64,000 nucleotides of DNA from Nocardiopsis kunsanensis DSM 44524 (GTDB taxonomy: Bacteria > Actinomycetota > Actinomycetes > Streptosporangiales > Streptosporangiaceae): NCBI RefSeq assembly GCF_000340965.1, contig NZ_ANAY01000001.1, positions 186,001 through 250,000 on the forward strand, in the 5' to 3' direction. Shown piece after piece: positions 13,016-19,186 of this stretch (positions are counted from its first letter, which is position 1; each line of letters opens with the position of its first letter). Below the pieces are notes generated by a model. The model ran no database searches. It was not told the origin of the DNA and saw only the letters and a list, made by a program, of their open reading frames with translations. Both the position numbers and the translations under genes were made by a program.

Positions 13016-13054
13016 CCGGGGTACGAGGACATGCGTGCGACGGGTCGATAGCGT
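13016..13054 (+). promoter_or_regulatory. Kinase-gene promoter: shared CCGGGGTACGAGGAC motif plus -10 TAGCGT
   Basis: GGGTACGAGGAC (13019-13030) lies where a -35 would be, 18 nt before TAGCGT (13049-13054). The -10 is only 8 nt before the ATG at 13063, so the transcript is probably leaderless. The same 12 bp recur upstream of the ABC ATPase gene at 15016-15027, which suggests a binding site for the response regulator encoded between them. The bases around TACC-GG-GGTA form a small inverted repeat. Confidence 0.5.
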
Positions 13055-13062
13055 TGGTGCCC

Positions 13063-14292
13063 ATGCCCACCACGTCTCCGCGCCCGCTCATGGACCGTGT
13101 GACACGTTGGGCCCGTGGGCACACGCTCGCCGTGGACGTGTGCGGGGCGGTGCTCTGGTTCACCGTGTCGGTCTCGCTCTGGCCGCTGACTTATTTCTCC
13201 GCCGTCGACTCCCTCCTGTACGTACTGTTGGCGGCGGCGTGCTGCTCGGCGTTGGCCGTGCGGCGCCTGCGTCCACTGGCGTCCCTCTCGGCCCTGGCCG
13301 CTTTGGTGACGCTCCAGTACCTGTGGATGAGCCAACTGACGGTGTTGAGCCTGGTCTGCGCCCTGGTGGCGGCCTACACCTCGCAGACGGAGCTGTCGCC
13401 CCGGTGGCGGCCCGTCGCGGTGGTGCTCCTGCTGGCGGGGGCGGCCTGGGCCGTGTTCATCATCCCGGACTGGACGGGCGGTGACGACCTGGGGAGCAGG
13501 ATGGCCACCGTGGCCTCGAGCTGGTCCTTCCTCCTGTTGTTCACCCTGCTCGGGACGGTGCGGCGGCGCAATCGCGAGGAGGTCGAGCGGGTGGTCGAGC
13601 ACGCACGGCTCCTCGAGGAGGGAAGGGACCGGGAGGTGCGCCTGGCCGCGCTGGCCGAACGCACACGGATCGCGAGGGAGATGCACGACGTGCTCGCGCA
13701 CTCGTTGAACGTCATGATCGCCCAGGCCGACGGGGGCCGCTACGCCGCGGCCTCCGACCCGGGCCGTGCGGTGGATGCGCTGGAGACGGTCGGCCGGGTG
13801 GGGCGCGAGTCCGCCCGGGAGCTGCACCAGCTCCTCGGTGTGCTCCGTGCCGACGAGGAGCGCGGGCCGGCCCCCGTGCCTGGTGTGGCCGCTCTTCCGG
13901 AACTGTTCGACGAGTACAGGAGCGCCGGCCTGGACGTGCGCCACGTGCTCCGCGGCGTTCCTCCGGGAGACGGCGGGGCCGAGGGGGCCGACCACGTACC
14001 CACGAGCGTGTCCCTGACCGTGCACCGCATCGTCCGTGAGGCCCTCGCCAACGTGCTCAAACACGCCGGGCCGGTGGTGGTGCGGGTGGAACTGGCGTGG
14101 TCGCCGCACCGGGTCGACGTGATCGTGGCCAATCTCCCCGGCGACGGAGGCGGCGAGGACGCTCCCGCGGGGCACGGCCTCGCCGGCATGCGCGAACGGG
14201 TGGCCCTGCACGAGGGCACTTTGGAAGCCGGTCCGGACGAGGGGACCGGCGGCTGGCGGGTGCACGCGACCCTGCACTGGGGGCGACCGTGA
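13063..14292 (+). CDS. Sensor histidine kinase, NarL-partner (HisKA_3) type
   Basis: This 409-aa membrane kinase has five or so hydrophobic segments in the first 165 residues and little extracellular sequence. The dimerisation/phosphoacceptor segment ERTRIAREMHDVLAHSLNVM carries the histidine, and the ATPase domain shows an N-box (REALANVLKHA) and GHGLAGMRERV. Short-loop sensors of this kind next to ABC exporters often detect membrane-active peptides. I chose the ATG at 13063, 8 nt after a -10 box; TTG 13054 and GTG 13057 are in frame. It overlaps the response regulator by GTGA. Confidence 0.88.
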   Translation: MPTTSPRPLMDRVTRWARGHTLAVDVCGAVLWFTVSVSLWPLTYFSAVDSLLYVLLAAACCSALAVRRLRPLASLSALAALVTLQYLWMSQLTVLSLVCALVAAYTSQTELSPRWRPVAVVLLLAGAAWAVFIIPDWTGGDDLGSRMATVASSWSFLLLFTLLGTVRRRNREEVERVVEHARLLEEGRDREVRLAALAERTRIAREMHDVLAHSLNVMIAQADGGRYAAASDPGRAVDALETVGRVGRESARELHQLLGVLRADEERGPAPVPGVAALPELFDEYRSAGLDVRHVLRGVPPGDGGAEGADHVPTSVSLTVHRIVREALANVLKHAGPVVVRVELAWSPHRVDVIVANLPGDGGGEDAPAGHGLAGMRERVALHEGTLEAGPDEGTGGWRVHATLHWGRP

Positions 14293-14984
14293 TCCGGGTG
14301 GGTTTGGCCGACGACCAGCAGCTCTTCACCGCGGGCCTGGCCATGGTGATCGACTCCCAGTCCGATCTGTGTGTGGCCTGGCAGGCACGGGACGGCGCCG
14401 AAGCGGTACGTGCCCAGCAGGAGGACCCCGCGGAACTGGTGCTCATGGACGTGCAGATGCCCGGCACCGACGGGTTGGACGCCACCCGAACCCTGGTCGC
14501 CTCCGGGTCGCGCTGCCGGGTGATCGTGCTGACCACGTTCGACACCGACGAGTACGTGGTGGAGGGCATCGAGGCCGGAGCAGCGGGGTTCCTGCTCAAG
14601 AGCACCCCGCCCGAGGAACTGTTGGCGGCCCTGCGCACGGTGCACCGGGGCGACTCGGTGATCTCGGCGAGCTCCACACGGCGCCTGCTGCAACACGTAC
14701 GGCCCCTGCTCGGGGGCGGTTCGGGCCCGTCCTCCCCGCCCGACCGGGAATTGCGTCGGGCGTCGGAGTCACTGACCCTGCGCGAGCGCGAGGTGCTGGT
14801 GGCGGTGGCACGCGGATCCACCAACACCGAGATCTGCGACCTGCTGGTGCTGTCCATGCCGACCGTGAAGACACACGTGGGCAACGTGCTGGCCAAGACG
14901 GGATCGCGCGATCGGGTGCAGGCGGTGCTGTTCGCCTTCCGGACCGGGCTGGTGGACCGTGAGGACCTGCTCCGCGGCCCCTGA
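14289..14984 (+). CDS. NarL/LuxR-family response regulator
   Basis: This 231-aa regulator has a receiver domain (acid pocket D8/D9, phosphoacceptor D54 in LVLMDVQMPGTDG, lysine in GFLLKST) and a C-terminal LuxR-type helix-turn-helix (LTLREREVLVAVARGSTNTE to VKTHVGNVLAK). The start GTG overlaps the kinase stop. It should bind DNA when phosphorylated; the motif GGGTACGAGGAC found before both the kinase gene and the ABC ATPase gene is a candidate target. It is followed by 113 nt and then the exporter operon. Confidence 0.92.
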   Translation: MIRVGLADDQQLFTAGLAMVIDSQSDLCVAWQARDGAEAVRAQQEDPAELVLMDVQMPGTDGLDATRTLVASGSRCRVIVLTTFDTDEYVVEGIEAGAAGFLLKSTPPEELLAALRTVHRGDSVISASSTRRLLQHVRPLLGGGSGPSSPPDRELRRASESLTLREREVLVAVARGSTNTEICDLLVLSMPTVKTHVGNVLAKTGSRDRVQAVLFAFRTGLVDREDLLRGP

Positions 14985-15012
14985 AGCGCCCGGGCCTCCC
15001 GTGTTCCTCCTC

Positions 15013-15027
15013 CCCGGGTACGAGGAC
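15013..15027 (+). promoter_or_regulatory. Second copy of the GGGTACGAGGAC motif, before the ABC operon
   Basis: CCCGGGTACGAGGAC shares 12 consecutive bases with the motif in the kinase promoter and lies 71 nt before the ATPase start. The -10 at equal spacing is weak. It is proposed as a response-regulator target from duplication and position only. Confidence 0.45.
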
Positions 15028-15097
15028 GGATCCGGTACCGCGGCCCGATGTGCGGGAGGGATGCGGTGACGGAGGCTTCTTCGTGGAAGGAGCATCC

Positions 15098-15997
15098 ATG
15101 AGTCACGTCATCACCACCGAAGGTCTGACCAAGACCTACGGTTCACGCACCGTCGTGGACGGATTGGACCTGCGCGTGCCCGAGGGCTGCGTCTACGGGT
15201 TCCTGGGTCCCAACGGATCGGGCAAGTCGACCACGATGAAGATGCTGCTGTCGCTGGTGCGGCCCACCCGCGGCGAGATCAGCGTGTTGGGCCGTCCCGT
15301 CGATCACCGCACACGACACGAACTGTCCCCGCACATCGGTTCCCTGATCGAGGCCCCTCCCGGCTACGGGCACCTGACGGGCCGGGAGAACATGGCGGTC
15401 GTCCAGCGCATGCTCGGGTCGAGCGACCGCCAGGTGGCACGCGCCGTGGAGATCGTGCGGTTGGGCGAGCACATGGACAAACGTGTGCGCGACTACTCCT
15501 TGGGCATGAAGCAGCGGCTGGGCATCGCGACGGCGTTGGCCCGGGACCCTCGCCTGCTCGTGTTGGACGAGCCCACCAACGGCCTGGACCCGGCCGGGAT
15601 CGAGGAGATCCGCGAACTGCTGGTGTCACTGGCCGACCGGGGCATCACCGTGATGGTCTCCAGCCATCTGCTCGACGAGGTCGACCGGATGGCGTCGGTG
15701 CTGGGGGTCCTCGGTCGGGGACGGTTGATCTTCCAGGGCACCCGGGAGGAACTGTTCGACCGGAGCGTTCCCGACCTGCTCGTGGACACCCCCGAGCCCG
15801 AGCGCGCCCTGGACCTCGGGTTGCCGGCGGTGCGCGGGCCCGGGGGTCTGCGCTTGTCCGGGTTCGACGACGCGGCCACCGCCGACCTGGTGCGGCAGCT
15901 CGTCCACCATGAGGTACCGGTCCACGGGGTGCGACGGGTGCGGCAGTCCCTGGAAGAGGTCTTCATGGACCTGACCGGGCGGGAGGGGTTGTCGTGA
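15098..15997 (+). CDS. ABC exporter ATP-binding subunit (peptide-immunity type)
   Basis: This 299-aa ATPase shows Walker A GPNGSGKST, signature YSLGMKQRLGIA, Walker B LLVLDEPTNGLDP and the switch histidine in MVSSHLL. The C-terminal ~80 residues are the accessory region seen in bacitracin/lantibiotic-type exporters. I chose the ATG at 15098 with GGAAGGAG upstream rather than the GTG 16 codons earlier. It overlaps the first permease by GTGA. With the two ~250-aa permeases it forms an ABC-2 exporter, probably for defence against or export of a peptide. Confidence 0.9.
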   Translation: MSHVITTEGLTKTYGSRTVVDGLDLRVPEGCVYGFLGPNGSGKSTTMKMLLSLVRPTRGEISVLGRPVDHRTRHELSPHIGSLIEAPPGYGHLTGRENMAVVQRMLGSSDRQVARAVEIVRLGEHMDKRVRDYSLGMKQRLGIATALARDPRLLVLDEPTNGLDPAGIEEIRELLVSLADRGITVMVSSHLLDEVDRMASVLGVLGRGRLIFQGTREELFDRSVPDLLVDTPEPERALDLGLPAVRGPGGLRLSGFDDAATADLVRQLVHHEVPVHGVRRVRQSLEEVFMDLTGREGLS

Positions 15998-16761
15998 ACC
16001 GCACCGCAGTGGCGGTCGAACTCCGCAAGACACGCCGCGCCCGGGTCGTTCCGGTACTCGCGGTCATGGTGATCGCGGTCGTGGCCCTGTCCTCGGCGAA
16101 CCTGTTCTCCGATTCGATGCGGGCCGACCTGAGCGACCCTTCCGCGCAACCGTGGGAACAGCTGCTGCTCAACCACGTCGTGGTCGCCGCGATGACCTCC
16201 CCGGTCGTGGTCGCGGTACTGGCCTCGCGTCAGGTCGACATCGAGCACCAGGGACAGGGGTGGACGCTGGCCCGTGTGTGCGGCCTCGGGCCGGGACAAC
16301 TGTGCCGGGCCAAGGCGCTCGTGCTGGGTGCCGTGCTGACCCTGGCCGTGGCCGTCCAGTCCGCCCTGGTCGCCGGGGCCGGGCTGCTCGCCGGCGTCGA
16401 AGTGGCTTTCCCCGCGGGGATGTGGGCGCGGTACACGCTCACCCTGGCACTGGTGAACCTGGTGGTGCTCTTCCTGCATCTGTGGTTGGCGGCTCGCGTG
16501 GACAACCAGTTCGTCGGCCTGGGGGTCGGCCTGCTCGGGGCGTTCTACGCGGTCTTCGCCCTGCTCATGCCGGCGTGGGTGGCTCTGGCGCTCCCCTGGG
16601 GACACTACGCGGCGATCTCTCCGCTGGGCACCGGACCGGACGGCGGTCTGGCCGCCGTCACCCCCGCCTACGGGGTGCTGGTGCCGTACCTGAGCGCCGT
16701 GGTGGTGCTGTTCGCCGTGGCCTGCCGCCGCTTCGACCGTGCTGAGGAGGGTCCGGCATGA
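15994..16761 (+). CDS. ABC-2 type permease, lantibiotic-protection-like (first subunit)
   Basis: This 255-aa integral membrane protein has about six hydrophobic spans. The segment DIEHQGQGWTLARVCGLGPG followed by RAK resembles the conserved E..gq.W..l..P....l..aK region of MutE/EpiE-type immunity permeases; that family link is a pattern judgement. GTG start overlaps the ATPase stop, and its stop overlaps the next start (ATGA), so the three genes are translationally coupled. Confidence 0.8.
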   Translation: MNRTAVAVELRKTRRARVVPVLAVMVIAVVALSSANLFSDSMRADLSDPSAQPWEQLLLNHVVVAAMTSPVVVAVLASRQVDIEHQGQGWTLARVCGLGPGQLCRAKALVLGAVLTLAVAVQSALVAGAGLLAGVEVAFPAGMWARYTLTLALVNLVVLFLHLWLAARVDNQFVGLGVGLLGAFYAVFALLMPAWVALALPWGHYAAISPLGTGPDGGLAAVTPAYGVLVPYLSAVVVLFAVACRRFDRAEEGPA

Positions 16762-17504
16762 TCCTCGCCGAACTCGTCAAACTACGCCGTTCGGCCCTGT
16801 GGCTGGTCGCACTGGTTCTGCCCGTGTTGACCGTGACGGCCGGGGCGCTGAACTACGCCGGCAACCGGAGCATGCTGTCGTCGGGGTGGGCGCCGTTCTG
16901 GTCACAGGTGGTGCTGTTCTACGGGCTGTTGTTCCTGTCGATGGGGGTGGCGGTCCTGGCCTCGGCCGCCTGGCGCATGGAGCACCGCGGCCACAACTGG
17001 AACCTGCTGATGTCCACACCCATCCGCCCTGCTGCGATCGTGGGCGCCAAGATCGCGGCGCTCGCACTCGTGGTCGCGTTCATGCAGCTGGTGCTGTTGG
17101 TACTGGTCGCAGTGGTCGGCCGTCTCGTCCTGGGCCTGGAGGGGATGCCGCCGTGGGAACAGGCCGCCGTGGCGGGGTTGGCCGTGGTCGCCGCGACACC
17201 GGTGATCGCGGTGCAGTCGCTGCTGTCGATGTCCATTCGCTCGTTCGCCGCTCCCGTCGCCCTGGGTCTGCTCGGGTGCGTGGCCGGGGCCGGTGTACTG
17301 CTCGGCGGCGGGGGCGGTGTACTCAGCCACCTGGTGCCGCAGGCACTGGTGTCCTCGGCGCTCTTCCTCGGTAACACGGCGGTCGCGGACTCGGCGTCGC
17401 TGGATCCCGGCGCCGTGGGCACGATCGTGGCCGCCGCCGGGGCCCTGACCGCGGCCGTGTGGGCGTTGTCGGCCGTGCTGCTGGCCCGCCGGGAGATGCG
17501 GTGA
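16758..17504 (+). CDS. ABC-2 type permease, lantibiotic-protection-like (second subunit)
   Basis: This 248-aa membrane protein is a paralogue of the previous one, with about six spans and the equivalent segment RMEHRGHNWNLLMSTPIRPA followed by IVGAK. It ends the operon; a strong hairpin follows at 17588-17624. The neighbouring orphan lasso-peptide precursor on the other strand makes peptide immunity or export an attractive, untested role. Confidence 0.8.
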   Translation: MILAELVKLRRSALWLVALVLPVLTVTAGALNYAGNRSMLSSGWAPFWSQVVLFYGLLFLSMGVAVLASAAWRMEHRGHNWNLLMSTPIRPAAIVGAKIAALALVVAFMQLVLLVLVAVVGRLVLGLEGMPPWEQAAVAGLAVVAATPVIAVQSLLSMSIRSFAAPVALGLLGCVAGAGVLLGGGGGVLSHLVPQALVSSALFLGNTAVADSASLDPGAVGTIVAAAGALTAAVWALSAVLLARREMR

Positions 17505-17627: not shown

Positions 17628-17829
17628 TCATTCGGAGAGGGAGCGCATCAGGCCGCGCGTGGCCAACAACGCACCCGGCACCGCAACGGCGAGACCGAAG
17701 ACCCCCACCAAGGGCAGCACCAGCCACGGGAAGGTCCAGAGGGTCGCACCGACATCACCCCCGCCACCGCCAGGGCCTGGAGGGCCCCGGCGTCGCCGAC
17801 CCCGCCACGAGGTCCGCCTTCTTCTGCAC
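17628..17829 (-). pseudogene. Frameshifted small membrane protein downstream of lasso precursor
   Basis: Reading from GTG 17829 gives MQKKADLVAGSATPG, then the frame runs into a stop; the +1 frame continues as GDVGATLWTFPWLVLPLVGV, FGLAVAVPGALLATRGLM and RSLSE before a stop at 17628. Removing one G from the GGGG run near 17788 joins the two into a 66-aa protein with a Gly/Pro-rich linker and one long hydrophobic span. GGAG lies 9 nt before the GTG. It follows the lasso precursor by 30 nt on the same strand. Either a real frameshift or a homopolymer sequencing error would explain it. I do not recognise the family. Confidence 0.4.
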
Positions 17830-17859: not shown

Positions 17860-17985
17860 TCAGAGCCACCAGCCCCAGCCGGGGCTGTCGATCCAGCCGC
17901 CGCTGGAGGTGATACGCGTCAGCTCTGCGGAGTCGCCGACATCGGCGATCTGCGGGGGCTCGTAGATCTCGACGTTCCCGTTCAT
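17860..17985 (-). CDS. Orphan lasso-peptide precursor
   Basis: This 41-aa peptide is too short for routine gene calling. The leader contains Y8-EPP-Q-I13-ADV-G17-DSAEL-T23-R24, an exact fit to the lasso leader rule YxxPxLx3Gx5Tx (with Ile for Leu), where the threonine is at -2. Cleavage after R24 gives a 17-residue core ITSSGGWIDSPGWGWWL, in which Asp is at position 9, as needed for an Ile1-Asp9 macrolactam ring. The tail is unusually Trp-rich (WGWWL) and there is no cysteine, so it would be class II. GAGGA lies 5 nt before the ATG. No B1 (RRE), B2 (protease) or C (cyclase) gene is within this window, so maturation would need enzymes encoded elsewhere. The nearby exporter and two-component system could provide immunity (inference). 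Confidence 0.78.
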   Translation of the reverse strand: MNGNVEIYEPPQIADVGDSAELTRITSSGGWIDSPGWGWWL

Positions 17986-18219
17986 CGCATTCCTCAATCT
18001 CTCGGGAGTGGACCACACTCGAGCGCTTCCCGCTGTGGAAACCGTCAGCGCCCGGTGCTGGTGCCCACCCTCGCGGTCCACGCTTCCTGAGCCCTGACCA
18101 TCTTTCGACCCGAGGGTGTCCAGGTGGTTCCTCCGCTCTTCCCCCGGAGAACACACACGCTGGTCCCGCCGCCGCGCTACGGTCGGTGCGAACCGGACGA
18201 CCGACCCCAGGAGACAATG

Positions 18220-18965: not shown

Positions 18966-19186
18966 TCAGCCGCGGGTGTCCAACCACATCACCTGCGGGT
19001 CGTGGTCGCTGACCCGGTCGTGGAACTCGGATCGGCGACCGGGATGTGGCCGAGGGCCTGCGAGCTGCCGTCGAACACGTAGTTGTACTGCTCGCCGGTG
19101 TCCAGGCCGGTCATCGGGTCGTGCAGCGGCCCGTCCCCGGTGAGCACCTCCAGCGTGCGGGAGAACTGGAAGCCGTTGAGGTCGAC
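18966..19186 (-). pseudogene. Remnant of a secreted endonuclease/exonuclease/phosphatase-family nuclease (ExeM/NucH-like)
   Basis: One frame reads VDLNGFQFSRTLEVLTGDGP then EQYNYVFDGSSQALGHIPV, which matches the C-terminal part of extracellular nucleases (usually DxNDFQFS..., YTYVF.GNSQ.LDHI). After ADP the frame shifts and continues SEFHDRVSDHDPQVMWLDTR to a stop at 18966, containing the catalytic SDHDP motif. The catalytic D-x-N is still visible but the 'LDHILVS' stretch is altered and a segment is missing. Only about 70 codons of an expected 600-900-aa protein remain. It follows the downstream end of the methyltransferase gene on the same strand. It is a decayed gene. Confidence 0.7.

Follow-up and report, generated by a model that had tools for sequence, protein, structure and literature searches.

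The 64-kb stretch of DNA analysed here (the window) carries an intact gene whose predicted product is a lasso-peptide precursor of the YxxP class, and this precursor is very probably the relic of a decayed lasso cluster, no longer matured in the strain today. We regard it as a likely ordinary genetic leftover because a matching cyclase was not found in the assembly and because broken pieces of a cluster lie elsewhere in the genome. Counting against a relic, the precursor ORF and its ribosome-binding site are both intact, and the genome is a 97-contig draft.

The precursor gene

Read on the minus strand from an ATG start, positions 17985-17860 translate as MNGNVEIYEPPQIADVGDSAELTR followed by ITSSGGWIDSPGWGWWL and a stop (Table 1). 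An earlier sequence-only reading of this DNA had proposed a 41-aa peptide that follows the lasso leader rule with Ile for Leu, and the sequence agrees: the rule YxxPx[L/I/V]xxxGxxxxxTx finds Y8, P11, I13 (Ile replacing Leu), G17 and T23, with x at 24. An excerpt of one paper (PMC10368454) gives the YxxPxL leader motif and Thr at -2 as marks of lasso precursors. The translation also confirms the 17-residue core that had been described, in which Asp is residue 9 and Trp occurs four times (7, 13, 15, and 16), and D9 falls in the core interval, positions 7-9, where an Asp or Glu ring acceptor is expected. With one water lost on ring closure, the predicted product would have an [M+H]+ of 1886.89.

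The NCBIfam lasso leader model NF033521 scores the window precursor at 21.8 bits against a cut-off of 19. Across the whole genome (5.31 Mb, 97 contigs), it matches in two places, the window precursor and a precursor on contig C3, and it matched in none of 14 control genomes. This model provides no full inventory, since it missed the lasso-type precursor on contig C16. The albusnodin precursor model NF033525, which matches the C3 and C16 precursors, did not match the window precursor.

Table 1. Positions in the window of the precursor gene, its parts, and the neighbouring permease remnant
Feature	Position	Strand	Basis
Lasso-type precursor gene, 41 aa + stop	17860..17985	(-)	ORF reading, NF033521 21.8 bits, homologues
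Leader, 24 aa, C-terminal ...LTR; predicted RRE-binding YEPPQI, Thr(-2)	17914..17985	(-)	Rule and alignment; predicted cleavage site
Predicted core ITSSGGWIDSPGWGWWL, predicted Ile1-Asp9 ring	17863..17913	(-)	Core G5, D9, and G14 invariant in nine precursors
GAGGAA, likely ribosome-binding site	17990..17995	(-)	4 nt 5' of the ATG, read from sequence
FtsX/MacB-type ABC permease stump, 3' end, one frame break near upstream edge	17633..17777	(-)	76% DNA identity to the G007 permease

Homologues and the Trp-tailed family

Homologues of the precursor occur in other genera, the best being that of Nocardiopsis potens DSM 45234 (G130; NZ_ANBB01000025.1; L129/L141), which is 62% identical over residues 3-41 (E 3e-16) and shares the DSPGWGWWL tail. 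At the family level, 18 of 341 genomes gave a match at E<=0.02, the window's own genome counted. Within the genus (40 genomes), the only strong match was in the own genome; the next best had an E of 0.0387, and weak matches at E<=1 were seen in 32 of the 40. NF033521 gave 17 matches in 13 of these 40 genomes, and none of the 15 outside the own genome, all inspected, has a core of the window-precursor kind. A core GRPNWGFENDWSCVRVC at L098 (G002:C10:360503) is one that we take to be the lasso peptide LP2006 of Nocardiopsis alba. A protein-database search with the precursor returned only itself, and the tail pattern W-x-D-S-P-G-W-G-W-W occurred in a single stretch, inside the N. potens locus, of a genome contig collection that may omit the nearest records of the window genome.

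Nine precursors were aligned: those of the window, N. potens, G326, G311, G159, G189, and a Streptomyces plasmid, and the two of G109 (L131, C5), where Trp-tailed precursors stand in tandem within one cluster. The 17 matching genomes besides the own thus contributed six (G130, G326, G109, G311, G159, and G189); six others (G064, G140, G141, G179, G250, and G266) were dropped for their different cores, and five (G091, G098, G201, G202, and G204) because a lasso-like leader was not found. G179 and G141 stand outside the alignment yet are among the seven homologue loci fetched below.

Invariant in all nine are M1, Y8, E9, P11, G17, D18, and T23, together with G5, D9, and G14 of the core. The residues seen at core position 1 are I, L, M, A, and D; none is Gly. 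The Ile1 and the Trp-rich core that had been called uncommon are present; as judged from the alignment, they are traits of a small precursor family and not of the window gene alone. Lasso cores with several Trp are also already known: according to the excerpted text of PMC12518702, chlorolassin of Lentzea jiangxiensis has Trp at positions 8, 12, and 14 of a 15-residue core and is produced and chlorinated by a halogenase.

The window leader departs at two columns that are otherwise constant in the nine-row alignment, E15 to D and F19 to S, and scores 12 bits lower than the N. potens leader. These departures may fit relaxed constraint, weakly and without deciding for it; the plasmid precursor, whose cluster has C, B1, and B2, likewise departs at two otherwise constant columns, and Asp is common at the position 15 place in other leaders of the genus. 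The codon comparison with N. potens (18 identical, 8 silent differences, and 16 residue changes, stop codon counted) involves so few codons that no inference is drawn from it.

Among solved structures, the only sequence match is a weak one, to the precursor of the siamycin-type peptide MS-271 (PDB 8itg_B; residues 7-39, E 0.0015). MS-271 is a class I lasso peptide with two disulfides, unlike the window core, which lacks Cys.

Whole clusters beside the homologues

The window gene had been described as a lasso-type precursor orphaned from its enzymes, and the comparison bears this out: the homologues keep the cyclase next door, with C, B1, and B2 following the precursor in all seven fetched loci (L129-L135). 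The precursor on the Streptomyces plasmid NZ_CP108791 is also annotated with C, B1, and B2 alongside. In four of the seven loci (G130, G109, G311, and G159), a MacB-type ATPase and a permease come next and then an ABC exporter, so that the gene order in these relatives is precursor, cyclase (C), B1, B2, ABC ATPase, permease, and ABC exporter. In N. potens, NCBIfam models confirmed both B1 (NF033530) and B2 (NF033537); three others were tested for B1, and all three have it. The C proteins of N. potens and five others score 243-252 bits against the albusnodin/ikarugamycin cyclase model, below its cut-off of 300; we therefore consider them related to that cyclase family but outside it.

In N. potens, the genes for C, B1, B2, ATPase, permease, and exporter stand together in a single run, whereas the genome of the window has scattered and broken parts. 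A cluster of this lasso type is thus seen at more than one stage, intact in N. potens and others, and here as a lone precursor with broken parts on other contigs. For genome mining the lesson is one of caution, since even a perfect precursor motif is no guarantee of a product. We know of no product of the N. potens lasso-type cluster, and a search of open-access papers found none that deals with orphan lasso precursors or with lasso peptides from this species. The Trp-tailed family (position 1 I, L, M, A, or D; G5, D9, and G14 constant, n=9) is uncharacterised, and its whole clusters could be expressed.

Lasso genes elsewhere in the genome

As the sequence-only reading had it, the 64-kb window holds no lasso enzymes: neither PF13471 (B2-type) nor PF00733 (cyclase-type) has a match there, though parts exist elsewhere in the genome. 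The genome-wide search that it proposed was only partly rewarded, with cyclase-like genes on C3, C16, and C51 and B2 genes on C3 and C28, but no cognate C or B1. Its suggestion to look for other precursors turned up those of C3 and C16, both albusnodin-type.

PF00733 (Asn_synthase) finds three loci. On C3 there is a full-looking albusnodin-type cluster (L006 7725-11330) with its own precursor, a B2, and a full-length cyclase (NF033561, 594 bits). A second albusnodin-type locus, on C16 (L066 8710-10100), has its own precursor (MDASVIPVPLDTDESVIDLGDAADLTLGEGSARNENKRNPYN), and its cyclase breaks off at position 379 of the 561-position model. C51 carries a remote asparagine-synthetase/cyclase homologue of 511 aa scoring 26 bits (L067 6919-8990). 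The cognate cyclase was thus not found in the assembled genome. The albusnodin-type pair shares the genome and the lasso class with the window precursor and differs in its leaders, which have no Tyr at the YxxP place, and in a cyclase family of its own; between the C3 cyclase and that of N. potens, identity is about 28%. An excerpt of PMC9266682 describes the albusnodin cluster as albA, albB, albC, and albT.

Some details of these loci may be recorded in passing. The core of the C3 cluster is GSDDQSVESKQSPYD, and an identical core is found in G005 (L108). Two C3 ORFs read as acetyltransferase-like from their sequence, as does a 179-aa ORF, without an NCBIfam match, that directly follows the C51 homologue.

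For B1/RRE, the genome gave no PF05402 match, in a search that was positive in 5 of 14 control genomes, and no match to a seven-row B1 profile, which was positive in eight of nine other genomes; G039 was the sole miss, and N. potens, one of the eight, had supplied a row of the profile. PF13471 matches on C3 and near the end of C28. The C28 B2 covers model positions 41-131 of 132 and aligns to the N. potens B2 from residue 58 only, about 57 N-terminal residues being absent; in a ten-protein tree, it is the sister of the N. potens B2 with 95/97 support. A complete B2 of the matching type was not found, and by this alignment and tree, the C28 B2 is the only cognate-type B2 in the genome and is truncated.

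Cluster fragments on contigs C28 and C61

The C28 B2 (L007 7039-9354) is adjoined by an ATPase that breaks off at the contig end. C61, a 4.2-kb contig (L136 1-4200), opens with the remainder of an ATPase, followed by a permease (55% to N. potens) and, near the contig end, an exporter (61% to N. potens). The broken ATPase ends of the two contigs have alike termini (AGGTGATC[T/C]CAGCGA..., 19 of 25 bases), with a CACTG repeat on both sides, which suggests that C28 and C61 were once one locus, since split by an IS. Permease and ATPase trees did not resolve the joining of C61/C28, N. potens, and G007/G023. The break in B2 is internal to C28, beside a gene of the N-acylglucosamine 2-epimerase family, whose start region the B2 fragment overlaps.

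Probably, these pieces are the rest of the window precursor's own cluster; otherwise, they would be leftovers of another cluster of this type.

The window locus in congeners

Synteny of the window locus rests on blastn. By that comparison, G039 has the galE-side DNA (to 13030), then about 130 bp, and then the divergent gene (from 18202), and in G007 and G023 an ATPase-permease pair fills the corresponding gap; the ATPase reading is open throughout in G007 and crosses ambiguous bases in G023. The window itself has in this gap a histidine kinase, a response regulator, and an ABC-2 operon, followed by the permease stump and the precursor. In these congeners, then, the locus has a transporter (G007 and G023) or only the short spacer (G039), and no lasso genes were seen at the corresponding place in G007 or G023. 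No congener with a whole cluster at the window locus was found.

The stump shares 31 of 42 residues with the permease of G007, 32 of 42 with that of G023, 22 of 41 with that of N. potens, and 16 of 40 with that of C61; a second blastn piece (17759-17799, 41 bases) aligns to an internal segment of the G007 permease. On these identities, the stump derives from the G007/G023 transporter and not from the C61 permease. The precursor and the stump share a strand and follow the gene order of the clusters, an arrangement that a single internal deletion would produce. The stump alone is no proof of a former cluster at the window locus, since G007 and G023 have no lasso genes there.

Proposed history and competing explanations

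In an intact cluster, B1 would bind the YxxP leader, B2 would cleave after Arg24, with Thr at -2, and C would close the ring between the amino group of Ile1 and Asp9 with the Trp-rich tail threaded through it; export of the product or protection of the producer would fall to the ABC genes. Later deletion and rearrangement would then remove C, B1, and the start of B2. It is also possible, and we hold it only as a tentative alternative, that two separate clusters decayed, one at the window locus, leaving the precursor, and one at C28/C61, leaving B2, transporter, and exporter: the window has its own permease stump, unlike the C61 transporter, and the precursor has the strand and cluster order to go with it, but the precursor and the C28 B2 are both nearest to N. 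potens, and each cognate-type part was found once. That the short ORF is a chance open frame merely resembling a lasso precursor, which the sequence-only reading had allowed for, has a vanishingly small probability. It sits within a longer, 276-codon open frame that is antisense to the divergent gene, as a chance frame might; against this stand the E 3e-16 homologue in another genus, the invariant columns, and the biosynthetic genes beside the homologues. By sequence comparison, then, the window ORF is a real gene.

An intact cognate C and B1 could lie in unassembled DNA, the precursor being matured normally, and a 97-contig draft with an ATPase locus truly split at contig ends gives some room for this; we judge it very unlikely, as the stated completeness is 100% (contamination 0.18%) and neither break is a contig end, the precursor lying within a 324.6-kb contig and the B2 break within C28. 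Maturation in trans, which had been suggested for the orphan, needs a YxxP-leader reader, a peptidase, and a cyclase. The C3 enzymes (a full-length cyclase and a B2, with acetyltransferase-like neighbours) might have adopted the window precursor as a second substrate, and excerpts of PMC12518702 lend this some precedent, the Thermobifida FusB/E pair having cleaved the non-cognate chlorolassin precursor in vitro. Such adoption is nonetheless improbable: the C3 and C16 precursors lack the Tyr, the C3 cyclase is distant from that of N. potens, neither B1 search found a reader, the sole cognate-type B2 is truncated, the genome's cyclase-like genes are albusnodin-type, with precursors of their own, or remote, and RREs can, in the excerpted text of PMC13381572, discriminate against foreign leaders. 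There is very little chance that the precursor outlived its own cluster with albusnodin-type enzymes making a Trp-rich Ile1-Asp9 lasso without a discrete B1/RRE. Among open-access titles on trans maturation, pseudogenes, and Trp or core position 1, we noticed nothing that bears on the window precursor.

Neighbouring genes

Two neighbours were considered as partners of the precursor and set aside. The ABC operon at 15050-17504 was rejected as dedicated immunity, since its orthologues appear repeatedly across the genus and none was found to have the precursor alongside. The divergent gene (from 18217) was rejected as a tailoring enzyme, having no homologue in seven of seven lasso loci (L093, L110, and L129-L133); its only matches are to polyamine aminopropyltransferases, below cut-off.

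The stretch 13054-17504 (histidine kinase, response regulator, and ABC-2 operon) resembles lantibiotic-protection transporters, also below cut-offs. Its orthologues in the genus often stand beside a gene of which 18973-19184 of the window is a 3' fragment, the remainder being deleted; that gene is complete in G007 (L090 6937-9162) and looks nuclease-like by eye.
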